DNA of 64,000 bases from Lepidostoma basale. Lineage: Eukaryota > Arthropoda > Insecta > Trichoptera > Lepidostomatidae. Location: contig JAHDVF020000997.1 in assembly GCA_022606425.2 (NCBI GenBank), forward strand, positions 186,001 through 250,000, given 5' to 3'. Below the pieces are notes generated by a model. The model was not told the origin of the DNA, did no database searches, and saw only the letters and a list, made by a program, of their open reading frames with translations. A program made the translations under genes and the position numbers. Positions 635 to 59,205 of this stretch are shown piece by piece (the stretch's first letter is position 1; every line of letters begins with the position of its first letter).

Positions 635-815
635 TTTATAATAGTAAACACGATTGTTTAATGGTTTTACTTGGATTTATTTTACAAAAATAGTGACAAA
701 TTTATTTCGCCTTGCGAGGTCATTCTCAAACTCAGCAGTTTGAGAATGCCATCGCTAGGCAAAACTAATTTGTCACTACTATTTATAAATTAATAATCGA
801 GTTTTAAAAAACCTC
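635..815. repeat. Foldback family FB-J, palindromic copy
   Basis: Inverted arms meet at about 735. Each arm contains TTGAGAAT, a helix-II-like segment (GCC/GGC) and GAAA or AAAA, followed by an AAATTTGTC-like end. The outer arms share TTTTACTTGGATT and TAGTAAACACGATTG with the fuller copy at 31545-31815. The layout is hammerhead-like with U3 and A8 in the core; helix III is degenerate. Confidence 0.6.
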
Positions 816-839
816 AACCATCAATAATATTTTATATAG

Positions 840-1340
840 AGTTTTACATAATTTTTCAAGACTCAAATTTTGTCATTCATATCGTTGGCGATATGTGAAA
901 ATGTTATGTTACCCCTAAATTAGCTTGCAACTTTGCAATAACGCCGTCTCTCCGTCTATAACAATAATAGACGAAGTTTCCATTAATAGTGTAGGTTCAG
1001 GCCGGATACCGAACTTTCAACTTCCCGTTTAAAGCCTGCAAACACACCGCTTAACCGCGCTTTTTGATTTCTCGCCGATGCCTATCGGGCGTTCCCCGAT
1101 CGACGCCAGCGCCGGCTACCAATATCCGTTGGCGTCGCGGCGCCGACTTCCTTCCGCTTTGTACTCGCCTCATTACCCCACCTCGGGGCCAATCTTAATT
1201 TTATCACCCCAAGCCTGTTAGATTGCTATTATTTCATGAAGTCAATATTCAATTTTAATGGGATTTTTATCATATCATGTTGGCGCGAATCAATGGCCTT
1301 TGAAAAATCCTCGTTTGAAAACGTCTTGATATAAGATAAT
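840..1340. other. Unique region with GC-rich island
   Basis: About 1025-1195 is much richer in C and G than its surroundings and contains several CpG-rich blocks. No open frame or splice signal was convincing. It could be a remnant of a regulatory or exonic region, but nothing shows that. Confidence 0.3.
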
Positions 1341-1344
1341 TAAA

Positions 1345-1615
1345 CCTTCTGGGGTCTAAGACACTCAGCCGATGTACGAAACTGTTGTTATACAAAACCA
1401 TCATAAGACCGACACTTACGGCAGTGAAATATGGTCCCTCACGCAGATAGAAGAAAATAGCAAGTCAGCAATTTTTGAAAGGAAAGATCACGAGGAAATT
1501 TTTTAGACCGACACTGGAGGATGGGACTTACAGAATCAAAAGAAATCTTGAACTTGAAGTATTGATTACCTAGGAACCAGTGGTGAGATTCTGTCTCAAC
1601 GTGGGCTGGCAACTG
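1345..1615 (+). pseudogene. LINE reverse transcriptase carboxy fragment
   Basis: Reading the plus strand with frame changes gives KTIIRPTLT, then a FERK-like and a KFFRPTLEDG segment and RIKRNLELEVL. This is the usual order after the palm domain in RTE-clade LINE proteins (LYKT.IRP.L.YGSE..FERK.LR.I). Stops and frameshifts break it. Family placement rests on this motif order only. Confidence 0.5.
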
Positions 1616-1804
1616 TTTAATTTCCAAATGAATTGCCTAAATGTTGTTAGTTTGTAACATATCATTTGTGTAAAATAAAAATAAATAAATAAATAATCAT
1701 TTAGATCAAGACATAATAACTTAGATGAGTCTTGATCTAAACAACATTATACACAATACATTACGTAGAGTTTCTATTGATTTAACATAAATATATCATC
1801 AAAT

Positions 1805-1905
1805 GATTTTACTAAAATCTCTTGATGGAAGTTCACTTTAAAAACTAATTAAAAAAACAATGCTTTTTAACTACTTCCACTTTTATCTTTATTTAAACAG
1901 ATAAT
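1805..1905. repeat. FB-C outer arm, truncated
   Basis: The segment with TTGATGGAAGTTCAC and AACTACTTCCACTTTT matches the outer arm of the FB-C palindromes at 1938-2296 and 52350-52555. It stops before the ribozyme-like core. Confidence 0.45.
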
Positions 1906-1937
1906 TACTGAATACTTTTTTTTTAAATCTAATTATT

Positions 1938-2296
1938 ATCATGACATGTGATAGGTAGTAGAAGCAGTAGTCCTATCGCAAATTTTATGGTATAATTATT
2001 ATATAATATAGTAATTAAATAAAACGGTGTTTTTTTTTTAACTACTTCCACTTTTGTCTCTATTTCGAAAGCGACCGGTTTCGCCAAGCTTGCTGGCATC
2101 GATGACTCTTGACACTGTTATATAAACTTACTCCTTTATGTGTATAAAGGTCTGTCGATGCCAGCGAGCCTGGCGAAACCGGTCGCTGTCGAAATAAAGA
2201 CAAAAATTGAGGTAGTAAAAAAACATCGTTTTATATCATTATATAATATCATAAAAATGGCGATAGGCTAGCTACCTATCACATGTCATAAGAATC
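1938..2296. repeat. Foldback family FB-C, palindrome of about 360 bp
   Basis: Arms of about 170 bases mirror each other, from ATGACATGTGATAGGTAG on the left to its complement on the right, with a spacer near 2105-2145. Each arm holds GCCAG or a variant, a short loop, a CTGGC-like strand, then GAAACCGGTC. The plus core reads CTGTCGAT, so position 6 of the hammerhead core is U rather than A. The outer ends overlap an interspersed sequence also found at 19345-19500. Confidence 0.7.
2150..2190 (+). ncRNA. Hammerhead-like motif, FB-C type
   Basis: Core CTGTCGA at 2152-2158, an unpaired T at 2159, helix II GCCAG with CTGGC, GAAA at 2175-2178, and helix III ACCGGT (self-complementary, no loop), then C2184 as the predicted cleavage-site base. 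The A6-to-U change departs from the functional consensus, so activity is doubtful. The same change recurs in other FB-C copies and in FB-L. Confidence 0.4.
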
Positions 2297-2859: not shown

Positions 2860-3079
2860 TCCCCTAAATATTAAAAAAAATATATATATTTAAAAACACG
2901 ACATGTTTCGGAGGATACCATCTTCAGGTGTAAAAATATAATAAAAACTAAACAAAGAAAGACTATTACAAAAACGCATTTAAAATTCGATACAATAATT
3001 CAAATTTAAAAATTAACCTGGGCTATTTGTTATAAGTACTAATAATTCTATTTTTATTAGTAAGAACTACTAATACATG
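2860..3079 (-). repeat. Foldback family FB-E, single arm
   Basis: The minus strand carries a good hammerhead-like core at 2896-2931. The adjoining 2940-3079 closely matches 47140-47300 (AACTAAACAAAGAAAGACTA, GGGCTATTTGTTATAAG, ending near AATACATGATGAT). A LINE-GRPP fragment begins at the right edge. Confidence 0.6.
2896..2931 (-). ncRNA. Hammerhead-like ribozyme motif, FB-E
   Basis: On the minus strand: helix I strand ACAC, core CUGAAGA (plus positions 2921-2927), one U, a shortened helix II (GG/CC), GAAA, self-complementary helix III ACAUGU, cleavage-site C at 2900, and helix I strand GUGU. All invariant core bases are present. Helix II appears to have lost three bases relative to the copy at 47091. 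Confidence 0.5.
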
Positions 3080-5277: not shown

Positions 5278-5639
5278 GAAAACGTCAGTTTTCTAGAAAT
5301 TTTATTTTATTTTATGGGAATGACATGTTTTGCGCTTCTAAGGCATTTTTAAATGTCTTGACATTTGATAATGCCTTAGAAGGGCGAAATATATCATACC
5401 CATAAAATGTAATAAAGCTTCTAGAAAACTGACGTTTTCATTCGTATTAATTATTTAATATGGAGTTCAAGAACCAATAAATACATTTCTTTATAGTATA
5501 TTGTAAGTTAAATTCTACTTAAGCTGATAGCTTCGAACGGTTTCGTCACCAGAAGATGGCAGCGAGCTGCCGAAACTGGTTGAAATCATAGACCGAATTT
5601 GAATTAAACAAAATTTATGCTGTAAATATTTTTTTATTA

Positions 5640-7174: not shown

Positions 7175-7260
7175 TTTCAAACAGATGCCAGCGAGCCTGG
7201 CGAAACCGGTCGCTGTCGAAATAAAGACAAAACTGGAAGTAGTTGAAAAACATCAATAGA
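7175..7260 (+). repeat. FB-C single arm
   Basis: CAGATGCCAGCGAGCCTGGC then GAAACCGGTCGCTGTCG and AATAAAGACAAAACTGG. Helix II and helix III match the FB-C consensus, but the 5' part of the core is CAGAT. Solitary arm, no palindrome partner nearby. Confidence 0.6.
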
Positions 7261-12026: not shown

Positions 12027-12105
12027 AAATTCTGTTATCTAGAAATTTTATTATGTTTTATGGGAATGACATGTTTCGCCTTGCTAGGCATTATCAAATG
12101 CATTT
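12027..12105 (-). repeat. FB-A single arm
   Basis: Plus strand reads TTATCTAGAAATTTTATTAT to GGCATTATCAAATG, the left FB-A arm. No right arm follows. It carries the cleanest FB-A ribozyme-like motif (12064-12101). Confidence 0.65.
12064..12101 (-). ncRNA. Hammerhead-like motif, FB-A (U3-A8 type)
   Basis: On the minus strand: UUGAUAA (plus 12091-12097), one U, helix II GCCU-AGCA-AGGC fully paired, GAAA, helix III ACAUGU, cleavage-site C at 12068. Compared with CUGANGA, both bases of the C3-G8 tertiary pair are changed, to U3 and A8, which could still pair. Confidence 0.45.
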
Positions 12106-12374: not shown

Positions 12375-13345
12375 GTCACTTCGTATTGTGAATAACTTTG
12401 GAGAAACATCGTATTTTCACAACACTTTTTTGCACTTTTCGCAAACACGTATGTTAAAAATATGTAGGTTAAAAACATACTTTTTATATATATTTATACA
12501 TATTTAAATTTAAGAATAAAGGAGCAAATAAATTATCTCCCAAATAAGATCTTTTCGAAGTTCGCTTACCACCTCTTTGAAAAAGAGCATTCGTTCATTA
12601 AGATAGCTACGTTTAAATTTTACACGTTAACAATAGAAACAATAGTGCTGAGAAAATACAAGTGACCCAAAGAGCCATGGAAAGAGCCATGCTAGGATTA
12701 AGCCTAAGAGACAGAGTCAGAAACGATACGGTGAGAGAAAAAACAAAGGTCACTGACATCATCCACCGGGTGGCGACTCTAAAATGGCAATGGGCAGGTC
12801 ACGTAGCCATAAGCTCAGATGAAAAGTGGACAAGAAGACTGCTGACTTAGAGACCGTGGACGGCAAAGAAAAGTGCAGGGCGACCGCAACTACGGTTAAA
12901 GGATGATCTGAACAGACACGTCGGAATAACCTGGATGCAGTCTGCACAGGACAGAGTGACATGGAAGCGAATGGAGGAGGCCTTTGTCTAGGAGTGGACG
13001 GAAATAGGCTGAGGGAGAAGAAGAGAAGAACAATAGAAACAAAACATTAAATAACATTGATAATGTTGAGTCATTTTAAATAAAGAAATGTTATGAACAA
13101 CCAAATAATCTTATTTTCAAGCGCAATTTTTGATTTGTTTCCATTGCCCCACAATCGTAATTTAACAATTACCCCTACTTCTAGAACTAACTTTACCCAC
13201 TATCATGTGATATACGAGTATACAATGTTAAGATAATTTGATCATTTTATTGTTATTTTTTATGCAGAAGAAGGAAATGTACAGTCCGAAACATGTTTGT
13301 GAAAAGTGTAAATATGCTACAATGTTATTCAAATATAACATTTAT
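12375..13345. repeat. FB-M palindrome split by a LINE
   Basis: The left arm (12380-12460) with TTTTCACAACACTTTTTTGC and the right arm (13265-13345) with GTCCGAAACATGTTTGTG mirror each other as in 34335-34690. Between them lies AT-rich DNA and an RTE fragment (12655-13025). The right arm has GAAA and helix III ACATGT, but the 5' core is lost. Confidence 0.45.
12655..13025 (+). pseudogene. RTE-GHV carboxy end
   Basis: Reads TQRAMERAMLGLSLRDRVRN, TKVTDIIHRVATLKWQWAGH, then with stops RPWTAKKSAGRPQLRLKDDL and TWMQSAQDRVTWKRMEEAFV. This is the standard RTE-clade end (MER.MLG.SLRD..RN, LKWQWAGH, GRP..RW.DD). It ends in an AGAAGAAGAGAAGAA tail and is near-identical to 60862-61160. Confidence 0.7.
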
Positions 13346-13384
13346 TAATGTTTTTTAATAATTAAAACACTGTTTTTACCACTT

Positions 13385-13565
13385 TTAAGTTTATTTTTCT
13401 TGGTATCTTTCGAAGGCTTTACACCTTTATCATCGGAAGAACGATAGTTTATATCGTTCTCCCAATTGTGGAAGTGTAAAATCATTGAAACATGTCGAGA
13501 AAAATAAAATCAATAACGGAGAAAACAGTGTTTAAATTCATAAAAAATCGTCATCATGGAATTCC
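13385..13565. repeat. Foldback family FB-K palindrome
   Basis: Arms from AAACACTGTTTTTACCAC to GAGAAAACAGTGTTTAAATT with a centre near 13445. The minus arm has CCGATGAT, AAGG...CCTT helix II and CGAAAGATACC. The plus arm has GAAACATGTCGAGAA preceded by a degenerate helix II. The palindrome is followed by GGAATTCCACAGTGTTGACG, also present near 47020 and 52165. Confidence 0.5.
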
Positions 13566-16784: not shown

Positions 16785-17210
16785 AGTTTCTTGGTAGAAG
16801 TTCATTTTAAATAATAAAAACAAAAACAATTGATGCAAAATTTCTTTATTATGTATTTAGTGTGCTTCCACTTGTGTTTATGTTCGACTGGTTTCGGCAG
16901 CTTGCTTGTTTATTATAATAAATGATAGTGGTGGGGGTTAAACATTTTTTCCCTGATTCTAAATAATGTAATACTGTTATTAAGTTGTAGTTAAAATGAC
17001 CCAAACCCAAAATTTACATTATATAGAATCATTTCAACTACAATTTAATAACAGTAATACATTGTTTAGAATCCGGGGAAAAATGTTTAACCCCCACCAC
17101 TATCATTTACTATATAAACCAAATGGATTTTGATGTAGGTACCAGAAGCACACTAAATACATAAAGAAATTTTGTATAATTTTTTTTTTCATTATTTACA
17201 AGAACAAGAG
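16785..17210. repeat. Foldback family FB-I, long palindrome
   Basis: The outer arms mirror over TTTATTATGTATTTAGTGTG and TACATAAAGAAATTT, and the inner arms over GTGGTGGGGGTTAAACATTT with its complement at about 17075-17105. The left arm has a minus-strand CTGCCGAAACCAGTC motif. The right arm lacks the ribozyme half, so the two arms differ in content. Confidence 0.6.
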
Positions 17211-19935: not shown

Positions 19936-19939
19936 TTAC

Positions 19940-23069: not shown

Positions 23070-23225
23070 TCTGTTTTCCAGAAGTTTTATTACAATTTAT
23101 GGGAATGGCATGTGATAATGCGTTAGACAATGCATTATCAAATGATATTCGATAGGTGAAACATGTAATTTCCATAACAAATAATAAAACATCGAAAAAA
23201 TAGACGTTTTCATTCTTATTAATTG
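23070..23225. repeat. FB-A palindrome, divergent
   Basis: TTCCAGAAGTTTTATTA on the left mirrors AATAATAAAACATCGAAAAA on the right, around a centre with GCATTATCAAATGATATTC and GTGAAACATGTAATTTCC. Helix II is rearranged. Confidence 0.55.
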
Positions 23226-23679: not shown

Positions 23680-23785
23680 TGGTGAAAATCAAACAATTGA
23701 TAGTGCCCTAGTAGGGCGAAACACGTCCGTCCCATAAAATATATTAAAACTTCTAGAAATTTCTATTGTATTTGTGTTATAGTAT
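23680..23785 (+). repeat. FB-A right arm, GC-richer helix
   Basis: ATTGATAGTGCCCTAGTAGG then GCGAAACACGTCCGTCCC and AAACTTCTAGAAATTTC. Helix II GCCC/GGGC pairs perfectly and helix III is ACACGT. The core reads UUGAUAG, so A9 is G here. Confidence 0.55.
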
Positions 23786-24815: not shown

Positions 24816-24880
24816 ACATAACTCGATCTCCATTTAGTATATAAGTGACCGCTCTGTTTTATTTGACTGTTATAATTGTA

Positions 24881-24922
24881 TACATTGATAAAGGTTACTT
24901 GTAACCGAAACATGTCTGAGTT
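24881..24922 (+). ncRNA. Hammerhead-like motif, FB-M (U3-A8 type)
   Basis: UUGAUAA at 24885-24891, one A, helix II GGUUA-CUUG-UAACC fully paired, GAAA at 24907-24910, helix III ACAUGU and cleavage-site C24916. It has the same U3/A8 replacement of C3/G8 as FB-A, although the two families differ elsewhere. Confidence 0.45.
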
Positions 24923-24984
24923 CAGTAAAAATAAAAAGTATTGTAATACAAAGTATAACTATATTTATTCAAATTTGTTTTTAG

Positions 24985-27574: not shown

Positions 27575-28249
27575 CAATAATATATCAAATGTCAAATTTT
27601 TCGAACCTTTATGTGTATTTGTTCCTATGTCAATTTGAATAATTTCTTTGATATAATTTCGGAAATGGCCAATCATTGTGTGAATTTTGACCATCATTTC
27701 GAGACCAACAACACATTTTTTTTACATACAGCAAATAATCCTCAAAAATTAGAGAAAATAAGAGAAAATAAGAAAAAATTGAAATTTTAAAGGCAAAAAA
27801 ATATAAACCAAATTTTATAAATAACCAAATTCCAGCTTATTACCCATTAGTATATAGCACATTAAAAACGTTTCCCCTATACAATCTAGCTAAAAAATAA
27901 TAATGCTACCTTCAACTTTTGACACCTTTCTTATTAATATTATCTACTTCCTGTTATTGTTTATCGTTTTTAATTTATTATGTTTCATCGTTTTTGACTC
28001 TATACTATGTGTAATTGTTCCTTCTAACTATTGTTTTATTATTATTTTTTATTATTATATTTTCCACCTTTAATATTTTCTCCTATAAATAGTAACTTAC
28101 CGTTCTTTTATATAAAATATTTAGGTAACTAATTCAATTACAGCAAGAACTTCAAAATTATTTCAAAGAAATTATTCAAATTGACATAGGAACAAATACA
28201 CATAAATGTTCGAAAAATCACGAAAATTTGACATTTAATATATTATTGT

Positions 28250-28294
28250 AACACCTGATGATGTCAACATAGGTTGATGAAACAGCTATCTCGT
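28250..28294 (+). ncRNA. Hammerhead-like ribozyme motif, FB-D right arm
   Basis: CUGAUGA at 28255-28261, one U, helix II GUCAAC-AUAG-GUUGAU, GAAA at 28279-28282, then CAGCUAUC with one helix III mismatch. Core invariant bases are intact. Confidence 0.5.
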
Positions 28295-28384
28295 AAAATA
28301 AAATACAATTGTAATACATAAAACAAAGTTTTTTAATTGAACAGTTTAATAAATAATGTGCTTTTATGTATAAAAAAAATAAAT

Positions 28385-31544: not shown

Positions 31545-31815
31545 CATTAATAATTTTTATTTTATAATAGTAAACACGATTGTTTAGTGGTTTTACTTGG
31601 ATTTAATTTATATACATTATATAAATTCGGAGAAATTTGTTTCGCCTTGCGAGGGCATTCTCAAACAATCCTAGTTTGAAAATGCCCTCGCAAGGCGAAA
31701 TAAATTTGTCACAATTTATATAATTTATATAAATGAAATCCAAGTAAAACCACTAAACAATTGTGTTTATTATTATAAATTATTAATAGGGTTTTACAAA
31801 ACTCAACTCAACCAT
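31545..31815. repeat. Foldback family FB-J, fullest copy
   Basis: Arms of about 120 bases mirror around 31670 (TAGTAAACACGATTG, GTGGTTTTACTTGGATTT, TTTCGCCTTGCGAGGGCATT). Both arms hold helix II GCC/GGC and GAAA; cores read TTGAGAA and TTGAAAA, again U3 with A8. A 25-base extension (GTTTTACAAAACTCAACTCA) is seen on the right only. Confidence 0.7.
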
Positions 31816-32523: not shown

Positions 32524-32731
32524 GGTTTTCTAGAAATTTTATTATATTTTATGGGAATGACATGTTTCGCCCTTCTAAGGTATTATCAGATGTGACATTT
32601 GATAATGCCTTAGTAGGGCGAAACATGCAATTCCCATTAAATATAATAAAACTTCTATAAAATTGACGTTTTCATTCGTATTGATTATTTAATATGGAGT
32701 TTTACATCAATGTTCAAGAAACAATAAATAC
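32524..32731 (+). mobile_element. FB-A insertion with 11-bp target duplication
   Basis: GTCCTCTTTTC at 32513-32523 and GTTCTCTTTTC at 32732-32742 (one mismatch). The left arm is shortened by about 20 bases relative to other copies; the right arm is complete and carries the 45-base tail ending CAAGAAACAATAAATA. The minus core reads CUGAUAA, the plus core UUGAUAA. Confidence 0.8.
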
Positions 32732-32822: not shown

Positions 32823-33067
32823 CAATTGTAAATAAAACGCTTGTTTTTCACCACTTGAGTATTATATTTTACACGACTAGTTTCGGAAGTTACAGATGCT
32901 TCCATCTACAGGTTTAAATATAAAGTTTATATTTAAACCTGTAGATGGAAGCATCTGTAGGTTCCGAAACTAGTGTAAAATATAATACTCGAGTGGTGAA
33001 AAACAAGTGTTTTATTTACAATTTAATCATGTCCTGCCACAAAGTGAATGCCGAAACAATAAATAAT
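32823..33067 (+). mobile_element. Foldback family FB-L with 10-bp target duplication
   Basis: ACACTTCGTT lies at 32813-32822 and 33068-33077. A 245-bp element: arms of about 95 bases (AATTGTAAATAAAACGCTTG mirrored at 33000-33019), each with GGAAG/CTTCC helix II, GAAACTAGT and core CUGUAGA. A 48-base tail follows only on the right and ends GAAACAATAAATAAT. Confidence 0.8.
32871..32915 (-). ncRNA. Hammerhead-like motif, FB-L
   Basis: Minus strand: CUGUAGA (plus 32905-32911), one U, helix II GGAAG/CUUCC, GAAA, self-complementary helix III ACUAGU, cleavage-site C at 32875, then GUGU pairing partly with AAAC upstream. The base at core position 6 is U, not A, so activity is uncertain. Confidence 0.4.
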
Positions 33068-33141
33068 ACACTTCGTTTACTTCCTATATTTTCATTTGAC
33101 ACTATATCATACACAGATTTCCACACATTGGTCTAAAAGAT

Positions 33142-34334: not shown

Positions 34335-34690
34335 AAAACACTATTTTATTACTTCTAATTCGCGATCACCGCGAGTTGTGGATTCACATTTGAATAACTT
34401 TTTGAAAACATTGTATTTTCCCAACACTTATTTCCACCTTTCACAAACATGTTTCGGGACACAGACTTCCCTACTTTAGTGTAGGAATTAATACATTTTA
34501 ACCGGATTAATAATATAAAAATGAATTTTAAAGAATTAAATTAATGCATTTTAAAGGTCAAAATTCATTATTCATACACTGGAGAGGTGAAGTCTGTGTC
34601 CCGAAACATGTTTGTGAAAGGTGCAAAAAAGTGTTGTGAAAATACAATGTTTTCAAAAAATTATTCAAATCACAATTTTATTCATTGAGA
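34335..34690. repeat. FB-M palindrome
   Basis: The left arm (GTGGATTCACATTTGAATAA, ACATTGTATTTTCC, ACAAACATGTTTCGGGACAC) mirrors the right arm at 34580-34680 around a centre near 34520. The plus core reads CUGGAGA with GAAACATGTT. A6 is replaced by G. Confidence 0.65.
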
Positions 34691-34704: not shown

Positions 34705-34960
34705 AATTACATAATCCATTGTTTCGGCCGAAACACTATGAAACTTCATAATTATCAAATGTTTTAATTATAAAAGTGTTATTATAAATAGTCCACTGTT
34801 TTGGCCGATGAAACTATCATTATTGGTATCATCAGGTGTTACAAACAACTCTTTTTTGTTTATAACACTTGATGATGCCAACGTCGGTGGGCGAAACAGC
34901 TGTCGCGACATTCTCAAAAAGTGAATAATTAAAAATTAAATTAAGTTAATACTGTTGTTA
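34705..34960. repeat. FB-D variant palindrome
   Basis: The constant end CCATTGTTTCGGCCGAAACA begins at about 34717, and a second CCACTGTTTTGGCCGATG at 34789. The right arm has UUGAUGA, helix II GCCAAC/GGUGGGC with one mismatch, GAAA, ACAGCUGU and GUCGCGACA. The left arm is recombined: its CUGAUGA is not followed by the usual helix II. Confidence 0.6.
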
Positions 34961-36343: not shown

Positions 36344-36567
36344 TTAATACGAATGAAAACGTCAGTTTTCTAGAATTTTTATTATTTTTTATAGGAATGA
36401 CATGTTTCGCCCTTCTAAGGCATTATCAAATGTTCAGACATTTGATAATGCCTTAGAAGGGCGAATCATGTCATTCCCATAAAATAAAAAAAAACTTCTA
36501 GAAAACTGACGTTTTCATTCGTATTAATTATTTAATATGGAGTTTTACATCATTGTTCAAGAAACCT
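36344..36567. repeat. FB-A, best palindrome
   Basis: Arms of about 88 bases mirror around 36436, from TACGAATGAAAACGTCAG to CTGACGTTTTCATTCGTA, then the tail GGAGTTTTACATCATTGTTC and AAGAAACC. The minus motif is intact (UUGAUAA at plus 36423-36429, helix II GCC/GGC, GAAA, ACAUGU, C); in the plus motif GAAA has become GAAT. Confidence 0.75.
36394..36433 (-). ncRNA. Hammerhead-like motif, FB-A (U3-A8 type)
   Basis: Minus strand UUGAUAA, U, GCC UUAGAAG GGC, GAAA, ACAUGU, C (plus 36399). The three-base-pair helix II makes this weaker than 12064-12101. Confidence 0.4.
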
Positions 36568-36577
36568 ATATATTTCA

Positions 36578-37651: not shown

Positions 37652-37996
37652 CTATTAATATGTATGAAAAACGATAGTTTTCAAGGAGTTTTATTATAAT
37701 ATTTATGTTTGACATGTTTCGCCCTTCTAAGGCATTTTCAAAATGTGGCGAGAATCAGTTCGTGGTTGCTTTTATACCCGAGCCGAAGTAGCAGAATTCG
37801 GGTTACTCAATAAATGTTTACAGTAATTAATATGTAAGACCGAAAAATATTGGATTACAATTCCTGAAAATACTTAGCAAATATTTTGACTACTTATGTT
37901 TACACATGGAAGTTATAATATTATATATAAATAATAAATGTACAGGTAGATTCAACCGAAGTATTTTCTCAGAAATACATGTTCGAGAAACAATAA
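37652..37996 (-). mobile_element. FB-A long form with 11-bp target duplication
   Basis: ATAAGCTTATG lies at 37641-37651 and 37997-38007. The left arm has a minus-strand motif (UUGAAAA, U, GCC/GGC, GAAA, ACAUGU, C). Instead of a right arm there is about 190 bases of other sequence (TATACCCGAGCCGAAGTAGC), related to 45930-46000, then the tail ending TTCGAGAAACAATA. This may be closer to a parental element. Confidence 0.75.
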
Positions 37997-38007
37997 ATAA
38001 GCTTATG

Positions 38008-40900: not shown

Positions 40901-40934
40901 TATACATATATTCAGAAAAATATGAAAGGAAAGG

Positions 40935-41055: not shown

Positions 41056-41099
41056 ATATTCTTCTATCTGGCATTCCCCTCGTTATATTTCCTTTATAT

Positions 41100-41488
41100 T
41101 CCTGTGTATGATAGAGTGTCGAATGAAAATATAAGAAGTGAATGCGGTGCAAATGATGGTGTTGTGAATAAAATAATGAAAGGATCATTAAGATGGTTTA
41201 GACATATGGAAAGAATGAATGAATAAAGAATTGGAAAAAAATTATATTTTAACGATGTAAATGGAACCAGAAATAGAGGAAGACCGAGGAAAACGTGGCA
41301 CGATCGAATAAATCAAATATTGAATGTCGGCCATGTGAGGAGTCAGAGAAATTGACGCGCGTGCATGACACGATGTATGAATGTTGAGGAATCGAAAGAA
41401 ATATGCCAGGAAAGAAAAGTGTGACAGTCCATTCTTTCTACCTACCCCTTCGGGGAGACGGCTTGATGGTTAGTTAGTTAGTTATATG
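41100..41488 (+). mobile_element. RTE-TTAG LINE 3' end
   Basis: YDRVSNENIRSECGANDGV, NKIMKGSLRWF, then with stops GRPRKTWHDRINQILNVGHV and the GCTTGATGGTTAGTTAG tail. Near-identical to 7998-8404 over most of its length. Confidence 0.75.
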
Positions 41489-42054: not shown

Positions 42055-42294
42055 GTTTAGTTTCGAAGATGTGGTCAGATGGGGACGTCAAAGACGGCGA
42101 TACTGGCATCAACACGTAAAAAGGATGAGCTCAAATAGGATACCACACATAGCTCTCCATGGAACGCCAAACGGACAACGCCGACCAGGAAGACCCCCGA
42201 AACGGTGGAGAGAAAGCTGGAGTTCAGCGTCTCAAGAGAACCCGCCTGAAATAACAGACTCCTGAGTCTACCAAAAGTGAAGAAGAAGAAGAAT
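42055..42294 (+). mobile_element. LINE-GRPP in FB-D, 11-bp target duplication
   Basis: TTAAATTTACA at 42044-42054 and 42295-42305. Reads EDVVRWGRQRRRYWHQHVKR, GRPPKRWRESWSSASQENPP, EITDS and stop, then GTGAAGAAGAAGAAGAA. A 240-bp 5'-truncated copy. Confidence 0.8.
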
Positions 42295-42326
42295 TTAAAT
42301 TTACAACACTGTTACATTATCACAAT

Positions 42327-44026
42327 GCATTCGGGCTTCACAAAAAAGTAAAGGAAATATCTGGGACAACAAGGAAGGCTACACCTACATGTCTGATGGA
42401 CGATTCCAATAAATTAATATTGGTTGAAAAAGAAATCCTTAAGACATGGGAAGATCACATTGAAAAGTTATTCAAAGATAATAGAACTGACTTCACAATT
42501 GACGGTGAATTAGAGGGACCCTCCATCCTCAGATCTGAAGTTATACATGCCATCAGAACTTCTCCTAACAGAAAAGCATGTGGTCCTGACGAAATCCCTG
42601 CGGAATTATTGAAATTGATTAATGAGGAAAATATTCACTACCTGCTGAGGCTATTTAATAAGATTTATGACACAGGGATTATCCCCCAAGAATGGCTGAA
42701 ATCGATATTTGTCACCTTACCTAAGAAGCAGCACCCAAAGAATTGTAATGACTATCGCATGATTAGCCTAATGAGTCATGTACTAAAACTGTTTCTTAAA
42801 ATTATACATGCCCGAATAAGAAACAAGTGCGAGCAAGATCTAGATGACACACAATTCGGATTCCGAAATGCATTCGGAACCAGAGAAGCGCTACTGGCAG
42901 TCAATGTCCTGCTACAGAAGTGTCGAGATCAACGCAAAGAGGTGTTTGCATGCTTCATCGATTATGAAAAAGCGTTTGACAGGGTAAGGCACACGACACT
43001 CATGGAGATGCTCAAAGACTGTAACATTGACTCCAAAGACCTGAATTTCATAAGAAACCTCTACTGGTGTCAAACGGCAAAGATCAGATATGGAAGTGGA
43101 AATACAGAGGCTATAGCTATACAAAGAGGAGTTCGACAAGGTTGTATTCTGTCACCTCTATTGTTTAATCTGTACTCCAATAAAGTTTTCCAAAGAACTC
43201 TAGAAAACTCTAGCCTTGGAGTGAAGATCAATGGAGTCGTTATAAATAATATCAGATATGCTGACGATACAGTCATATTGGCTGAAAGTATACCTGATCT
43301 CCAAGAACTCCTAAATAAGATTGACACGGCTGGAGAAGAATTGGGTCTGACAATAAATGTCGCTAAGACCAAGTGGATGTCGTTTGGAAGACTTGATTAT
43401 TCTGGATCATCTTTGCGACTAAAAGGAGTAAATATCGAAATGGTTGACCAGTTTAAATATCTCGGCAGTATCATTACTAAAACACTCGACCCAGATACAG
43501 AAGTAAAATGTAGAATAGAAGTTGCACGTGCTGCATTTAATAAGATGAGACCCTTCTTCTGTGACGATAATTTAAATCTTAAACTTCGACAAAGAATGAT
43601 AAAAGCTTACATATGGTCAGCTCTATTATACGGAAGTGAAACATGGACTCTAAAAGTGAACGTAATGAATCGGTTAGAAGCATTCGAAATGTGGATACAC
43701 AGAAGAATGCTTCGTATACCTTGGACCGAAAAGGTCAGTAACGTCGAAGTACTTAGGAGAGCCGGAGCCAAGAGAGAGCTGTTGTCGAATGTCAAAGTGA
43801 AAAAGGTCTCATATTTGGGTCACGTGCTGCGTGGAGAAAAGTACCGCCTCCTCCGACTTATATTGGAGGGCAAGATAGAGGGAAGACGGGAGTTGGCAGA
43901 AAACAGATGTCCTGGCTGCGCAACATTAGAGAGTGGACCGGAATGAGGACGGTGGATGACCTGTTTCGGGCAGCGCAGGACAGGGAGGTTTTCGCCGGAG
44001 TGATCGCCAACGTCGGGGGGACCTGA
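42327..44026 (+). pseudogene. RTE-clade reverse transcriptase, 5'-truncated, one frameshift
   Basis: Open from the insertion edge; the first ATG is at 42396. Counting from it: ACGPDEIPAELLK (61-73), RMISL (121-125), FGFR (154-157), motif A FIDYEKAFD (187-195), GVRQGCILSPLLFN (245-258), catalytic YADD (288-291), KTKWMSF (about 324-330), FKYLG (353-357), then GSETW and the post-palm GHVLRGEKYRL. A frameshift near 43885 diverts the frame; the original one resumes as QMSWLRN and ends at TGA 44024-44026. It would copy RNA into DNA at the nicked target. The amino-terminal endonuclease is missing, so it cannot act alone. Confidence 0.9.
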
Positions 44027-44247: not shown

Positions 44248-44400
44248 AATACGAATGAATTCGTCAGTTTTCTAGAAGTTTTATTATATTTTATGGGAAT
44301 GATATGTTTTACCCTTCTAAGACATTATCGATTGTACCTTAGAATGGCGATTATGTATTAATTATTTAATATGGAGTTTTACATCATTGTTCAAGAAACA
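44248..44400 (+). mobile_element. FB-A short copy with 14-bp target duplication
   Basis: ATTATAACAGTGTT (44234-44247) and ATTATAACAATGTT (44401-44414), one mismatch. The element begins AATACGAATGAATTCG and ends TTCAAGAAACAA. The centre and ribozyme halves are decayed (ATGTTTTACCCTTC). Confidence 0.75.
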
Positions 44401-44449
44401 ATTATAACAATGTTGTTAATTTAACAGTAAATAATGTTGAAGTGTCACA

Positions 44450-44680: not shown

Positions 44681-45485
44681 TGTATACAAATACTTACGAC
44701 CACCATGTCTGACAAATTTTTGGAAGTTGTACAAACAAACAAACAGACCATCACGCCGTTTCCCCGCAGGGGTAGGCAGAGAGAATGGACCGCCACACTA
44801 CTCTATCCTGGCAAACCTCTCTAGCTTCCTCTACATTCATACAACGAGTCATACACGCACGTCGATTCCTCCGACTTCTAACATGACCAACCTTAAAAAT
44901 TTAATTACTTTGGTCATGCCATGTTTTCCTCGGTCTGCCTCGACTTCTTACCCCATTTATATCATTATAGTATAAGTTGTATATATGTTAATATGTAACA
45001 ACACACTTTACATGTTATTTTCAACCTACACAGTAGCGCCATCTATGAAGATTAGATTTAATAAGACAATAGATGTTCAACAACATTTTGAATGTATACA
45101 AATTCTTGTAGACAAATACTGGATTTCACCCATTGCGGATAAATTATTTTTATTTTACAAGGATTAATTGTATCTCAATAGAGACGAAGATGCAGTTTTC
45201 TGGAAACAGAAGGTGGTGGCCGAGGCGCTTACAGGACTTATGACCTGTCATTGGTTGGGTTGAGCGATCGCTTCACGTTTAACAACATTCCCCATTCCGC
45301 CGTTATGACCACCACGTCTGACAAACTTTTTGAAAACGCCTCGGCCACCACCTTCTGTTCCCAGAAAACAATTTGCATCTTCGTCTCTATTGAGATACAA
45401 TTAATCCTTGTAAAATAAAAATAATTTATCCGCAATGGGTGAAATCCAGTATTTGTCTACAAGAATTTGTATACATTCAAAATGT
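44680..45485. repeat. REP-B' palindromes interrupted by a LINE
   Basis: A minus/plus composite of variant B': GACCACCATGTCTGACAAAT and AATTTTTGGAAGTTGTA at the left, split by a LINE (44732-44973), then a palindrome centred near 45325, whose arms mirror from TGTATACAAATTCTTGTAG through ATTGTATCTCAATAGAGACG to CAGAAGGTGGTGGCCGAGGC. Confidence 0.65.
44732..44973 (-). mobile_element. RTE-TTAG LINE, (GTTT)n subfamily
   Basis: AAGTTGTA flanks at 44724-44731 and 44974-44981. The minus strand reads NGVRSRGRPRKTWHDQSN-like, GHVRSRRNRRACMTRCMNVE, EAREVCQDR, a YPCGETA-like end and a GTTTGTTTGTTT tail. Confidence 0.75.
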
Positions 45486-45509
45486 TGTTGTATAAATATA
45501 ACTGGTACA

Positions 45510-46994: not shown

Positions 46995-47310
46995 AAGTTA
47001 AGGCATTAACACTGTGGAATTCCATAGTAACCTACTTTGAGAATTAAAAAAACACTGTTTAAACCACTTTTTAATAAAAAAATAATAAAATACACGACAT
47101 GTTTCAGAGGATACCTCCATCCTCAGGTGTAAAAATATAACAAAAACTAAACAAAGAAAGACTAATAAAAAACGCCTTATAAATTCGATACAAAAATTCA
47201 AAATTAAAAATTAAGTTGGGCTATTTGTTATAAGCAGGTACTAACAATTTTTTTTTACCAGTAAAATTATAAATAACATTAAATAATAATAATACATGAT
47301 GATAATATAA
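46995..47310 (-). repeat. FB-E, best ribozyme-bearing copy
   Basis: CACTGTGGAATTCCATAG and AAACACTGTTTAAACCAC (shared with FB-K and 52150-52200) lead to the minus-strand ribozyme-like motif at 47091-47131. The interior 47140-47300 matches 2940-3079. Single arm. Confidence 0.65.
47091..47131 (-). ncRNA. Hammerhead ribozyme-like motif, near-consensus
   Basis: Forty-one bases on the minus strand: helix I UACAC with GUGUA (5 bp), core CUGAGGA (plus 47119-47125), one U, helix II of five pairs including one G-U wobble (GGAGG-UAU-CCUCU with register G-U, G-C, A-U, G-C, G-C), GAAA, self-complementary helix III ACAUGU, cleavage-site C at 47096. All invariant hammerhead bases are present. The loopless helix III implies that it would work best as a dimer, as proposed for the minimal hammerheads of Penelope-like elements and some satellites. 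Confidence 0.6.
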
Positions 47311-51434: not shown

Positions 51435-51605
51435 TTCTTTCGTGAATATTTCACTAGTTTATTAAATATTTTTATAAAATAAATATGTCAACCACGACAA
51501 ATTTCGCAGGTGACCTCCATTCTCATTTACACCTGAAAATGGAAGTCACCTCCGAAACATGTCGTGGTTGATATTTTTATTTTATAAAAATATATAAAAA
51601 AATAA
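51435..51605. repeat. FB-E palindrome
   Basis: Left arm (TTTTTATAAAATAAATATG, CAACCACGACAAATTTCG) mirrors the right arm (CATGTCGTGGTTGATATTTT) around 51520. The plus motif reads CTGAAAA, U, GGA...TCC, GAAACATGTC, GTGG, with helix I CAC/GTG. G8 is replaced by A without a change at C3, so it is probably inactive. Confidence 0.65.
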
Positions 51606-52349: not shown

Positions 52350-52555
52350 ATCTCTTGATAGATTAAACTTAAATAATAATAAAAAACAATGTTTTTTAAT
52401 GACCGTCTACATTTTTCCTAATTTCGACAGCGACTGTTTTCGCCAGGCTGACTGGCATCTACAGACTCTACAATCTATCGATGCTAGCCAGCCTGGTGAA
52501 ACCGGTCGTTGTCAAAATAAAGACAGTGGAAATAGTTGATAAAAACATCGTTTTA
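52350..52555. repeat. FB-C palindrome
   Basis: The minus arm has CUGUAGA, U, GCCAG-UCAGC-CUGGC and GAAAACAGTC. The plus arm has CTATCGA, U, GCTAGCCAGCCTGGT and GAAACCGGTC. Outer arms share AAAAACAATGTTTTTTAA. As in other FB-C copies, core position 6 is U. Confidence 0.65.
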
Positions 52556-52603
52556 TTTATTATTTCGTTATCTCTGTTTCCTGGAAGTTTTGTTATAATT
52601 TAT

Positions 52604-52645
52604 CTAAAGGACATGTTTCGCCTGTGTAAGGCATTATCAAATGTT
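52604..52645 (-). ncRNA. Hammerhead-like motif (U3-A8 type)
   Basis: Minus strand: UUGAUAA (plus 52634-52640), one U, helix II GCCU-UACAC-AGGC fully paired, GAAA, ACAUGU, cleavage-site C at 52610. Confidence 0.45.
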
Positions 52646-52680
52646 TGAAAATGCCTTAGACAGGTGAAACATGTCGTTCT
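52641..52680 (+). ncRNA. Hammerhead-like motif (U3-A8 type)
   Basis: UUGAAAA at 52645-52651, one U, helix II GCCU-UAGAC-AGGU (G-U closing), GAAA 52666-52669, ACAUGU, cleavage-site C52675. Confidence 0.45.
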
Positions 52681-52819
52681 CATAAATCATAACAAAACAT
52701 CTAGAAAACAGTCGTTTTCTATTCGTATTAGTTATCGTTTTATTTAATTATTTATTTCAATGAAATTCTATTTTATTGCGAGCGTAAAATTTCAGATGTT
52801 TATTAATCTCAACATATTA

Positions 52820-55740: not shown

Positions 55741-55868
55741 AACAAATTGGTATTAGAATAATATATATTAGTTTCTTCTATGTTTGCATTACTTTGTGTT
55801 GTAGATGTTTTATATTTTTCTTTTTCGTTTTGTATACAACACTCACTTTTTAAACAAATTAATCGTAA

Positions 55869-55912
55869 ATATCAAACATGTTTCGGACAACCCGGTCCTT
55901 CCTCAGAGATAT
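55869..55912 (-). ncRNA. Hammerhead ribozyme-like motif, near-consensus, FB-N
   Basis: Minus strand: helix I AUAUC with GAUAU (5 bp, after one U-U at the junction), core CUGAGGA (plus 55900-55906), one A, helix II GGAC-CGGGUU-GUCC, GAAA, self-complementary helix III ACAUGU, cleavage-site base U at plus 55875. All invariant bases are present. Site base U is allowed in natural hammerheads (any base but G). Confidence 0.6.
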
Positions 55913-56038
55913 GATATAGATATTTAAAATATTATAAAATTGTTTACAAATATGATCAGTTTTGACAGATGTCTTTATATCATCTATCAAAACTGATCAT
56001 ATTTGTAAACAAATTTATAATATTTTAAATATCTATAT

Positions 56039-56084
56039 AATATCTCTGAGGAAAGACCGGGTTGTCCGAAATATGTTTGATATT
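56039..56084 (+). ncRNA. Hammerhead-like motif, FB-N right arm
   Basis: CUGAGGA at 56045-56051, helix II GAC...GUC after AA, GAAA, then UAUGUU (one helix III change) and GAUAU pairing with AUAUC upstream. Core intact. Confidence 0.5.
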
Positions 56085-56147
56085 TAATTTTAATTTGTTT
56101 AAAAAGTGAGTGTTGTATACAAAGTACATAAAAAAGAAAAATAAATA

Positions 56148-56500
56148 TATAAGTGTTTAAATATATTGTTCAAATGTCACCACAAATCAAATGCTTCATT
56201 CGAATGCATCAAAATGATAATTCGTTAGCGAACAAAACAAAACATTGTTGGGTTAAAACAAATATGTAAGTGTTTAAATATTTTTTTAAATGTCACCACA
56301 AATCAAATTCTTCATTCGAATGTACGTATATTAATGATAATTCGTTAGCTAACCAAACAAAACAAAATGGTAATAAAACAAACTATATAGCATAAGTGTT
56401 TAAATACTCTTTTTTAAAAGTCACCACTAATTAAGTGCTTTATACTTAAGTGTAAATGATAATAAGTTGATAAGAAATGATAATAAACATTTTAAACCGA
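56148..56500 (+). repeat. Three-copy tandem repeat, about 117-126 bp
   Basis: AAGTGTTTAAATA starts at 56151, 56268 and 56394. Each unit has GTCACCAC.AATCAA-like and GATAATTCGTTAGC-like blocks and ends in an AAACAAAACA run. The third unit is more diverged. It abuts the FB-N palindrome. Confidence 0.7.
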
Positions 56501-56980: not shown

Positions 56981-57290
56981 AATCAAATCAGTTTATTAAC
57001 TCAAAAGACATTGCAAACAGGAAAAAGTTTAAGGCATCTTATGATGGGTATCTTATAATCCATTTCTTTAGATTACTCAGGGGATATTTCGAGAACTCGG
57101 CCGTGCTGGAGAGTGTTCGGCTTTTTGTCCCTGATAGATATTTCCGACAGCATATATTGTTTTACCTACCGGGCGCCAGAACCAACCTGCCTCTGGTGAC
57201 AACGGTGGGAAGAGCAATTAATCTTCTGAACGCGGTCCCCTCGGAGTTTAACGTCTTTCAATAATGAAATAAACTGATTTGATTTGATTT
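56981..57290 (+). pseudogene. LINE-VPD carboxy end between inverted tails
   Basis: The plus frame reads FFRLLRGYFENSAVLESVRL, FVPDRYFRQHILFYLPGART, NLPLVTTVGRAINLLNAVPS and EFNVFQ, ending AATAAACTGATTTGATTTG. The left edge (56983-57020) is the same 3' tail in reverse, so two copies meet head to head or the insertion was inverted at its 5' end. Confidence 0.65.
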
Positions 57291-57292
57291 AA

Positions 57293-57785
57293 AAATGTCC
57301 TTTATACCGACGTACGAGAACAAGTCAGTAAAGCCTCCGCCGTGTCAGGATGCCTGAAGGATCTGGTCTGGAAGAACAAGCACATGCGTATCGACAGCAA
57401 GATCAGAATTTATAAAACATACGTGCGACCTATCATGACGTACGCCTTGCGAACCAAGTGACTACTAAGAACATCAGAGATGAAGGTCCTAATTACTGGA
57501 AAAACTCTCCGAGATCGTGTCCGCAACGTAGACATAAGAAAAACTTGCGAAATAGTGGATATCGTTCAATGGAGAAGATTCAGAAGAAGATACTGGAGGG
57601 ACCATGTAGCCTGAATGGATGGTGACAGACTTGCATATACAGCCGCTTATGAAATCCCCTCCGGACACCGCCCACCTGGAAGACCGCCTAAGAGATGGAA
57701 AGACAGCTGGACATCATTATCCGACAAGACATGATTTCCGTGTCACAGATCGTCAGATTTATTAAAAGAAGAAGAAGAAGAAGAA
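57293..57785 (+). pseudogene. LINE-GRPP, longest carboxy copy
   Basis: Reads YTDVREQVSKASAVSGCLKD, MRIDSKIRIYKTYVRPIMTY, then TLRDRVRNVDIRKTCEIVDI, RRFRRRYWRDHVA, GRPPKRWKDSWTSLSDKT and a (GAA)n tail at 57767-57785. Two stops. It shows the family's thumb region (YKTYVRP..TYA.RT). Confidence 0.75.
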
Positions 57786-58189
57786 AGAAGAGATGATTTG
57801 ATATAAAAAAGTCGTTTTCTAAATAGCTAATCGTATTTCTACCCTTAGATACCTGCCTAAGATACTAATCTACGTACCTTGGCAATATGTATGCAGATTG
57901 CATGCAGTACGTGCCCTTACTAGGAGTAAGGTCTTCGGGGACTTGTAGCGACGACAAAATGCAATTTGTAAATGTTATAAAGTTCTTTGTTGTATTTGAC
58001 ATCAAAATGGAAATGCGTTTATGTTAAACACGAAAAAGATAAGCCCTCTTTATACATATATTATTCACGAAATAAAACTACCTATGTTGCGTGCATGCTT
58101 GGATGAGTCACATCTAGGTTTTGATACCCTATAATTTTGAAAAATGTGAAGCAGGAAATTTTTACATGTAATACGTGGGCTTAATACTA
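57786..58189. other. Unique DNA
   Basis: No feature recognised. Confidence 0.3.
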
Positions 58190-58612
58190 ACTAACTAACT
58201 AACCATCACACCGTCTCTCCAGAGGGATAGGCAGAGAGGATAAACCGCCACAACGTTCTATCCTGACATACCCTTCTATCTTCCTCTACATTCATACATC
58301 GTAACATGCATGATCGTCGATTCTTTCGACTTCGAAAGTGGCCGACTTTCAGTATTTGATTAATTCATGTCATGCTTTCCCTGGTCTTCCACGACTTCTC
58401 TTCCCACTCACACTGCTTGTATACAACATTTTAACCATTCTTCTCTCGTCCATTCGTTTCATATATCTAAATCATCTCAGAGACCCTTTTTTAATTTTAC
58501 TTATGATGTAATTATCTGCCTTACATTTCTTCCTTATTTCGTCGTTCGGTATTCTATCATGTATTGTTTTCCCGCACATTCTTCTTAGAGATATCATTTC
58601 TATGGCTTGATA
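58190..58612 (-). mobile_element. RTE-TTAG LINE, divergent copy
   Basis: Tail AACTAACTAACTAACCATCA at the left. The minus strand gives CMLRCMNVEEDRRVCQDRT-like, GSGREVVEDQGKHDMN-like and MCGKTIHDRIPNDEIRKKCK segments. More diverged than its neighbour at 59345. Confidence 0.65.
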
Positions 58613-58699
58613 CTAAACTGACGAAATCAATTTACACACATGAAATGATACGTATTAATCAAATATAAAATAAGGAATAAATAGAATGTCAATGAAATA

Positions 58700-58960
58700 T
58701 AAATGATGAGTGTTGAGAATCTGTTCCAAGTAGCGCAATAAAGAGATGCTTTCGCTGCAATGATCTCCAATGTTGGGGGGATCTAACAAAGCACCAGAAG
58801 AAAAATACACCCAGCTAATGGAAGGTAACCCCGACAGAAAATCCTCCAGAGAAGGCAAGGGGATACCACTCTATTTTTCCCCAGGTCATCACCATGAGGC
58901 CTACTCAAGGCTGATAGTCAACGTTAGGGAGACCTGACAAGACACAGAAAGAAGAAGAAT
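58700..58960 (+). pseudogene. RTE-GAA 3' ends, two in tandem
   Basis: ENLFQVAQ then RDAFAAMISNVGGI and stop, followed by CACCAGAAGAAAAA; a second GGGAGACCTGACAAGACACA with AAAGAAGAAGAA closes at 58960. Two truncated 3' ends appear to stand next to each other. Confidence 0.55.
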
Positions 58961-58980
58961 GTAATATAAAATTTTATTAA

Positions 58981-59205
58981 ATCATCCATTGTTTTTGGCC
59001 GAAACACCTTAACATTTTAAAGTGTTAAATTAAATAACTTTGTTTTATATATCACAATTTATTTTATTTTACGCGACAGCTGTTTCGTCAACCTATGTTA
59101 ACACCTGATGATGTCAACATAGGTTGACGAAACAGCTGTCGCGTACAATTAAATAAATTGTGATACATTAAACAAAGTTATTTGATTTAACAGTTTAAAA
59201 TTATC
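58981..59205. repeat. FB-D palindrome, best motif
   Basis: Left arm from CCATTGTTTTTGGCCGAAAC (constant end) to ACGCGACAGCTGTTTCGTCA; right arm from 59105 to GTTATTTGATTTAACAGTTT. The arms meet at about 59100, so the plus strand has a full core whereas the left arm has only the 3' half. Confidence 0.75.
59099..59145 (+). ncRNA. Hammerhead ribozyme-like motif, FB-D
   Basis: CUGAUGA 59105-59111, U59112, helix II GUCAAC-AUAG-GUUGAC fully paired (59113-59128), GAAA 59129-59132, helix III ACAGCUGU self-complementary, cleavage-site C59140, then GCGU. Helix I is the weak part: C-G, an A-C mismatch, C-G and A-U. Confidence 0.55.

Follow-up and report, generated by a model that had tools for sequence, protein, structure and literature searches.

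Foldback repeats of the caddisfly Lepidostoma basale as probable insertions of Penelope-like element ends with hammerhead-like motifs

A 64,000-nucleotide (nt) stretch of the Lepidostoma basale genome (assembly GCA_022606425.2, contig JAHDVF020000997.1, positions 186,001 to 250,000; hereafter the window) contains many short foldback repeats whose arms carry a hammerhead-like motif. These foldbacks are very probably short insertions of Penelope-like elements (PLEs), in which hammerhead-bearing element ends were copied from two templates primed on both target strands. The original prediction, made from the letters of the window, had described families of foldback elements built around one hammerhead-like core; the pattern is real and well conserved, and its interpretation is partly supported. 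What the families have in common is a hammerhead-like RNA core, found far above chance expectation, with helices I and II that covary between families.

A descriptor composed of a YUGANRA core, zero or one nucleotide, helix II (at least 3 bp, at least two of them G-C), GAAA and a palindromic helix III matched the window at 13 places on both strands, against means of 0.1 (palindrome of at least 4 nt) and 0.05 (at least 6 nt) in 40 dinucleotide shuffles. With one core mismatch allowed, 17 matches were obtained against shuffle means of 0.8 and 0.25 for the same two palindrome lengths, and removal of the helix III condition also left 17 matches in the window against a mean of 0.47 and a maximum of 2 in 60 shuffles. 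Exactly one spare base separated the core from helix II in 17/17 matches, although zero to one was permitted, just as had been predicted. Helix III was palindromic over at least 6 nt in 13/17 matches of the descriptor without the helix III requirement; the predicted length of 6–8 nt is exceeded in F2, where this helix has 10 nt. The match at 10758 (+), with a 29-nt helix-loop and no palindrome, is probably due to chance.

A covariance model trained on 11 window motifs and searched without filters found 36 places in the window at E < 0.1, the 11 seeds being counted among its matches. One of these places, 60010 (−), within a long interspersed nuclear element (LINE) frame, was judged to be chance and removed, and two weaker matches, 687 (−; E 0.52) and 34571 (+; E 3.1), were added for lying in palindromes; 57720 (−), likewise judged to be chance, was left out. 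The final set consisted of 37 motif copies, grouped by reading of the matches into about 12 families or subfamilies: F1 (13 copies), F2 (4), F3 (5), F4 (2), F4b (2), F5 (2), F6 (2), F7 with F7b (3), F8 (2), F10 (1) and F11 (1); F9, which is decayed, was recognised by eye only. These labels could not be mapped one to one onto the FB-A to FB-N of the original prediction, and its reading of them as independent families of a foldback superfamily is not supported: F3 and F4 are PLE ends (see below). An Rfam search of the window gave no hammerhead model at E ≤ 1, and its 32 matches at this threshold belonged to microRNA families and one small nucleolar RNA, all under the gathering score and mostly on palindromes.

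Inverted-repeat pairs with arms of at least 30 nt numbered 21 in the window, and the motif was present by eye in 12 of 18 palindromes inspected. By partner search and reading, the partner arm was absent for 9/37 motif copies: an upstream inverted partner, sought for 12 unpaired copies, was clear at 24877 only and marginal at 7177, and the partners of 44293 and 37703 were recognised by reading.

Among the representatives of 12 families, the core CUGANGA...GAAA was exact in F4, F6 and F7 and of the form YUGANRA in F1, F2, F4b, F7b and F10, while the four others had one departure, CUGU-GA in F3 and F5 and CAGAAGA in F8 and F11. The YUGANRA form that had been proposed is not kept in every family. 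Helix I paired in 35/48 cells against 21.0 in shuffles, 0/5000 being as good, in a test independent of the descriptor; helix II paired in 44/48 cells against 28.0, a figure biased by the descriptor, which demands helix II. Each helix I position showed 3–5 pair types, and a register shift of 0 was the best (35/48), other shifts giving 3/12, 14/24, 8/36, 8/48, 22/48 and 16/48. Helix I is weak in several families. Core positions 3 and 8 pair with each other in active hammerheads; in our representatives they were C-G in seven, U-A in three, U-G in one and C-A in one, and this pairing in 11/12 cells (shuffle p 0.06) is suggestive only. When dimers of the 12 representatives were folded, the minimum-energy dimer was a clear two-hammerhead form for F4 and F6, and several other families preferred different duplexes. 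Given the self-complementary helix III, an active form would probably need two RNAs.

The link to PLEs was sought in the whole source assembly (769 Mb). The GIY-YIG endonuclease domain (PF01541) gave 62 genome matches out of 150 candidates scored, several of these matches forming inverted pairs, and the covariance model matched in 27 of 30 GIY-YIG loci examined (59 matches at E ≤ 0.1; none in L017–L019, genome loci being numbered with L). The mere presence of a motif near GIY-YIG proves little, motifs being dense genome-wide (36 in the 64-kb window). More telling is the constant position of the motif: an F3 motif lay on the same strand 407–464 nt downstream of GIY-YIG in 17/30 GIY-YIG matches, in 15 of them at 451–457 nt, and an F4 motif lay 356–590 nt downstream in at least five loci (L020, L030, L032, L033 and L034), as counted from 18 of the 59 covariance matches; the same-strand motifs of L021 (544 nt, 63-nt motif), L027 (1040 nt), L031 (98 nt, broken core) and L035 (1422 nt) were not counted for F4. 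The F3 frame L047:1981-3783, 600 residues from its first ATG, matches the reverse transcriptase (RT) domain RVT_1 (E 1e-13) and GIY-YIG (E 4.7e-5), both above cut-off, and has 266 relatives at E ≤ 0.001 among 7999 scored candidates, the named ones being mostly insect among the 120 matches listed. Because the motif holds a fixed same-strand place behind GIY-YIG or RT/GIY-YIG frames, F3 and F4 are ends of PLEs, with the endonuclease link for both and the RT link for F3.

Copies of the motif families are numerous in the genome: with up to 2 mismatches, and with 0 matches for the reversed-pattern control of each, we counted 19,861 matches of an F1 motif 28-mer, 17,984 of an F1 tail 34-mer, 7,928 of an F4 31-mer, 836 of an F5 37-mer and 10,335 of an F7 36-mer.

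The anatomy of the insertions was best resolved in F3, for which 15 independent two-armed insertions were collected across the genome (L023, L024, L025, L037, L041, L043, L044, L046, L047 with L048, L049, L050, L051, L052, L053 and L054). Duplicates were merged (L022 and L045 with L053, L038 and L042 with L052, and L048 with L047, which has the same arm lengths, mirrored), and L028, L029, L039, L040 and L055 (one arm in reach), L036 (rearranged) and L035 (partial) were not counted as two-armed. The F3 arms stand head to head, and one short-ended arm is paired with one long-ended arm in 15/15 insertions. The arms end at reference positions 2961–2976 (short) and 3002–3031 (long) in 14/14 insertions with clear coordinates; in L047 the short arm abuts an AT repeat, and the long/short pairing was seen by reading. 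The short-end zone is also where arms stop in L028, L029, L040 and L055, four loci without a visible partner arm. Both arms carry the motif in 13/15 insertions. Target duplications were found at p ≤ 0.05 in 11/14 insertions tested, the significant ones being 8–14 nt long and AT-rich; L047/L048 was excluded from this test, its flank being the AT repeat. Note that L047 (G000:C742) and L048 (G000:C236) are apparently the same F3 insertion, mirrored and with nearly identical arms, and are perhaps allelic copies kept separate in the assembly.

At their inner ends the two F3 arms are mostly unequal. The long-ended arm reaches further 5′ in seven of the 15 insertions, the short-ended arm in seven (by 31, 316, 625, 656, 658, 834 and 875 nt), and in one they are equal within 2 nt; in L049 the inequality is visible at the protein level, the arms having open frames of 326 and 494 residues. 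With the short-ended arm extending further 5′ in 7/15, neither arm copied the other, barring later deletions; as each arm of these seven holds sequence that the other lacks, the insertions require two RNA-templated cDNAs, unless inner sequence was afterwards lost from the long-ended arms.

These unequal arms bear directly on the least improbable of the alternatives, in which the same PLEs would form the palindrome by snap-back, one target-primed cDNA folding on its own 3′ end and copying itself. Self-priming with an antisense template has been proposed for the Penelope elements of Adineta (PMC3846280), the F1 arms have a nearly identical inner end where read, and the centre of the F7 element 59014–59201 looks by eye like priming at a 6-nt self-match. 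However, the further 5′ reach of the tail-less arm in seven F3 insertions leaves no room for whole copying and refutes snap-back for those seven, barring a subsequent loss of inner sequence in each long-ended arm; nor does snap-back predict clustered short ends, as measured in 14/14 F3 insertions. We therefore consider snap-back improbable as the general route, and two templates primed on both strands fit best.

The motifs and elements of the window (window positions, strand in brackets) are as follows.

625..827: F2 head-to-head element, motifs 687-737 (-) and 732-782 (+), covariance model; target duplication 609-621 / 828-840, 0/300 controls as good
2034..2223: F3 head-to-head ends, motifs 2065-2112 (-) and 2144-2192 (+), inverted repeat and covariance model
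2892..2935 (-): F4 motif, covariance model; partner arm not found
5278..5439: F1 head-to-head element, motifs 5314-5360 (-) and 5357-5403 (+), inverted repeat and covariance model; longer tail on right arm, no significant target duplication found
5542..5589 (+): F11 motif, weak, CAGAAGA core, descriptor and covariance model (E 0.005)
7177..7220 (+): F3 end with truncated core, covariance model
12060..12105 (-): F1 motif, descriptor and covariance model; partner arm not found
13257..13305 (+): F8 motif, descriptor and covariance model; partner arm not found
13351..13547: F9 decayed head-to-head element, motif by eye only, tail ATGGAATTCCAC..
23104..23175 (+): F1 motif with helix II insertion, covariance model; an inverted F1 piece adjoins
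23689..23735 (+): F1 motif, covariance model; partner arm not found
24877..24924 (+): F10 motif, covariance model; inverted tail partner 219-256 nt upstream
28247..28300 (+): F7 motif with CUGAUGA core, covariance model
31549..31813: F2 head-to-head element, motifs 31626-31672 (-) and 31668-31718 (+), covariance model; weak target duplication (p 0.15), approximate edges
32524..32730: F1 head-to-head element, motifs 32551-32597 (-) and 32591-32637 (+); target duplication 32512-32523 / 32731-32742, p 0.01
32823..33067: F5 head-to-head element, motifs 32867-32919 (-) and 32931-32980 (+); target duplication 32813-32822 / 33068-33077, p 0.003
34388..34670: F8 head-to-head element, motif 34571-34620 (+), inverted repeat and covariance model (E 3.1)
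34861..34912 (+): F7b motif, descriptor and covariance model; partner arm not found
36345..36563: F1 head-to-head element, motifs 36391-36437 (-) and 36434-36480 (+), covariance model; weak target duplication (p 0.09), approximate edges
37653..37999: F1 element, minus arm with motif 37703-37749 and short plus-strand tail, terminal GAGAAACAATAAATA; 9-nt direct repeat at both edges, by eye
44293..44339 (-): F1 motif, covariance model; inverted tail arm at about 44355-44401 (+) with internal deletion
47088..47134 (-): F4 motif, core CUGAGGA, helix I ACAC/GUGU, descriptor and covariance model
51455..51604: F4b head-to-head element, motifs 51488-51532 (-) and 51525-51571 (+), inverted repeat and covariance model
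52424..52515: F3 motif pair, 52424-52472 (-) and 52467-52515 (+), covariance model
52560..52733: F1 head-to-head element, motifs 52602-52648 (-) and 52637-52683 (+), inserted beside or in the end of the F3 copy 52424..52515; target duplication 52547-52559 / 52734-52746, p 0.003
55808..56144: F6 head-to-head element, motifs 55867-55914 (-) and 56038-56085 (+), helix I AUAUC/GAUAU, inverted repeat and covariance model
59014..59201: F7 head-to-head element, motif 59097-59148 (+), core CUGAUGA, helix II of 6 bp, helix III ACAGCUGU, inverted repeat and covariance model

The short elements of the window resemble the F3 insertions in build. Their arm ends were counted from A9 of the core, with the target duplications as anchors. 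In this measure the arms end at +60 and +126 in the F1 element 32524–32730 and at +83 and +123 in the F5 element 32823–33067, and the position of the left end varies from +60 to +110 in six window elements. A first pass over rough zones gave target duplications at p ≤ 0.05 in 2/15 window elements; with the edges of eight elements redrawn by eye, and hence with some choice by eye, p ≤ 0.01 was reached in 4/8, and the duplications of the four clear cases are 10–16 nt long. The genome set for F1 comprised 30 loci picked by exact tail match, and so is conditioned on one long arm. An inverted F1 arm was found within 200 nt for 22 of these 30, and 21 of the 22 partner arms end short, 13 of them at U 92–100; target duplications at p ≤ 0.05 accompanied 10/22 loci. 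In the F1 arms read, the sequence begins about 5 nt upstream of the core and the inner end is nearly constant, and every motif-bearing arm continues across the predicted cleavage site. Independent truncation of the F1 arms was rejected, the cases read being mostly internal deletions, and only F3 gives such evidence; 44293 was likewise rejected as an asymmetric insertion in favour of a deletion. The strand bias of the tail arm (+ in 5278, 31549, 32524, 32823, 36345, 37653 and 44293) was taken as chance; in copies elsewhere (L010, L048 and L054) the tail arm lies on either side.

By eye, the tail of F3 reads ATG AAC TTC CAT CAA.. (MNFHQ..), and those of F4 and F9 begin with MEFH.., that of F5 with MSCHKVNAETI and that of F1 with MEFYIIVQET. 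Database PLE N-termini include MDLHQVTATS (P0129), MEFHKLK (P0130) and MNYHKVTAS (P0138), with LIMEFHQVEAD in P0127; most other PLE N-termini compared are without a tail-like pattern. In this comparison by eye, made without a statistical test, the tails look like the first codons of PLE proteins, which would place the long start inside the PLE open reading frame (ORF), about a dozen codons in, and the short start no more than about 8 nt from the ORF ATG. The ATG at A9-U-G10.1 of the hammerhead, present in 29/37 copies (7177 has another, out of register), was rejected as the PLE start codon: the frame that it opens stops after 11 codons in the F3 copies read and after two in most F1 copies, and the tail ATG (MNFH.., MEFH..), by eye like the N-termini of P0127, P0129, P0130 and P0138, seems the better start.

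In the mechanism that we infer, each arm would be a cDNA of a PLE end, comprising the hammerhead-like ribozyme, a leader and, in the longer arm, approximately the first dozen PLE codons. The PLE endonuclease would cut both target strands, and both 3′ ends would prime reverse transcription, using two RNA templates and starting at internal sites: a downstream site for the long arm and, on the opposite strand, a site about 33–48 nt (F3) or 44 nt (F1) further upstream for the short arm. Joining of the cDNAs at the ends that match the 5′ side of the template would then leave the two arms head to head, as a palindrome between the copies of the target duplication. The RNA used as template would be uncut at the hammerhead, because every motif-bearing arm crosses the predicted cleavage site, and with uncut templates cleavage would not create the 5′ end of the inserted copies. 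The palindrome is best explained as a product of the insertion mechanism and not as a part of the ribozyme. The shared motif order, which the original prediction had ascribed to selection on the RNA rather than to common descent of the whole sequence, is better explained by common descent of a PLE end module plus selection on the RNA, and not by convergence.

Several observations weigh against this reading. Two of the 15 F3 insertions, L043 and L046, have one arm without enough length for the motif, and some unequal F3 arms may be later losses, palindromes being deletion-prone and deletions having been seen in F1. Within 200 nt, 8/30 long-tail F1 arms are partner-less, the F1 locus L073 has two long arms, and the F1 element 52560–52733 has two short ones (+75 and +83). 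The F2 element 625–827 (arms +99 and +82), in which the right arm ends with tail sequence, fits only given an internal deletion in this arm. The U at core position 6 in F3 and F5 would presumably impair catalysis. As to the proteins, other families share the PLE end architecture and are probably PLE ends, the link to a protein-coding copy being seen for F3 and F4 and not for F1, F2 and F5–F11; a protein search with the F5 leader peptide, limited by its length, found nothing. The longest F3 frame (758 residues from stop to stop) looks 5′-truncated, and a complete PLE, in which hammerhead, entire ORF and second end follow in direct order, was not seen; a limited regular-expression scan of the six frames of the window for a few PLE motifs gave no fit. 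Finally, the strict long/short pairing is not predicted by the Anolis in vitro study, where the start site was the same on both strands (PMC11167929).

Two further alternatives place the copies outside PLE insertion. Metazoan retrozymes are non-autonomous circular-RNA elements with type I hammerheads, and the type I order and small size of our copies would suit them, as would the co-occurrence of retrozymes with PLEs (PMC7761336) and the tandem F1 motifs of L009 (G000:C2:1098400-1101400; three copies 249 nt apart) and L014 (G000:C2:3726000-3727000; two copies 146 nt apart). However, only these two tandem groups occur among the 100 F1 places listed, the arms cross the cleavage site, the F1 copies that were read have their start some 5 nt upstream of the core instead of at that site, and the head-to-head form with a tail is that of PLEs (PMC3846280), which makes a retrozyme origin very unlikely. 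Still less credible is that foldback or terminal-inverted-repeat DNA transposons resembling miniature inverted-repeat transposable elements (MITEs) hold the hammerhead-like sequence by accident: short palindromic copies with many thousands of matches and the duplications of the four clear window cases would fit, but the ends are neither fixed nor equal, with the left end varying, the two F5 motifs of a pair stand anywhere from 14 to 76 nt apart (in 16 inverted pairs, from a listing of 100 places), some copies are one-armed, and for F3 and F4 the place of the motifs behind GIY-YIG or RT/GIY-YIG frames refutes it.

Because PLE insertion seems to use two templates, it may be proposed, tentatively and with the odds against it, that the hammerhead is kept mainly as a dimerisation site, its helix III pairing two PLE RNAs that then serve as the two templates of one insertion, with cleavage secondary. 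If true, this role would join the hammerhead with weak helix III, the head-to-head copies and the tail of one arm in a single mechanism.

Other features of the window may be mentioned beside these. In the F10 copy, TATATAAG lies about 40–50 nt upstream of the hammerhead (window 24820–24885), and it could possibly be a promoter starting the RNA just before the motif. Inverted LINE-like fragments with 379-nt arms occupy 40500–41482, and a decayed F3-like motif (40946–40990, +; E 0.61) lies between them. The window is insect-like: for its longest LINE frame (42255–43946), the best relatives with names come from beetles, psyllids and moths. A viral-contig scan with the window LINE protein found no relative. 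Hammerhead-free palindromes at 16906–17122, 19923–20149, 36574–36924, 45069–45499 and 63734–64000, some of which share pieces by eye, are probably other element families. A 120-nt tandem repeat (56138–56440, 2.5 copies) begins at the right edge of the F6 element, and a 280-nt tandem repeat (1.9 copies, 99% matches) at 25346–25887 starts with what by eye resembles a reversed tRNA T-arm; ARAGORN found no tRNA in the window.

The route of PLE insertion, the inverted ends, the tail at one end and the purpose of the hammerhead are questions that these copies address. With tens of thousands of end matches, nearly identical F3 copies included, the rule of one long and one short arm from two templates is statistically testable, and self-priming is already disfavoured by the differing truncation of the two arms. 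In an insect-like genome, moreover, PLE ends can take the form of short foldback repeats, and such repeats should be checked for this before they are filed as MITEs. As PLE ends with minimal hammerheads, the elements belong to a known kind. The pairing of a long with a short end may be new; its rule was not found stated in the open-licence literature searched.

Among known systems, twin priming of L1 also uses two primers on two strands and gives an inverted arrangement, with one RNA and only the 5′ part inverted, whereas both arms here carry the 3′ end. Metazoan retrozymes resemble our copies in being non-autonomous and repeated and in their type I hammerhead, but they are tandem and circular, whereas head-to-head copies from uncut RNA would be formed here (PMC7229834). 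Small PLE hammerheads cleaving as dimers (Cervera & de la Pena 2014; Lunse et al. 2017, compared through the citing papers PMC7761336 and PMC6155905) are likewise minimal type I motifs with a weak helix III suiting two-molecule action, and are likewise dispersed in non-coding DNA and at PLE ends; beside them, 12/12 representatives here have the extra base between core and helix II, and three have U-A for C-G at core positions 3 and 8.

The Penelope elements of Adineta vaga (PMC3846280) share with our insertions the inverted pseudo-long terminal repeats (pLTRs) placed head to head, the palindrome at their junction, the tail on one pLTR, a target duplication (8–10 nt there) and the first codons inside the pLTR. 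The tail is optional on one inverted end there, and the copy number is low, whereas here about 8,000–20,000 matches were counted for three of five patterns; for the self-priming proposed there, two-template priming fits better here. The Anolis Penelope/Poseidon elements (PAc; PMC11167929) likewise have the hammerhead at the element end and an ORF with RT and GIY-YIG domains, and their hammerhead has been studied with the same core 3–8 pair. In the in vitro work, the Anolis PLE protein cleaved the two target strands, extended each of them and initiated at internal template sites; the 30–40 nt between two such start sites make up the tail, and unprocessed RNA was the main template. Our insertions fit this mode, with ends at two start sites, target duplications and arms across the cleavage site, and the places of the long and short starts would come close to those published for the pLTR and tail in Adineta (12 and 22 codons; PMC3846280) and in Anolis (PMC11167929). 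In contrast to PAc, where the start codon lies in stem II, the main start codon here is apparently in the tail, about 90–100 nt downstream of the core; moreover, a long and a short start are paired within an insertion, and the copies in the window are mostly short head-to-head palindromes.

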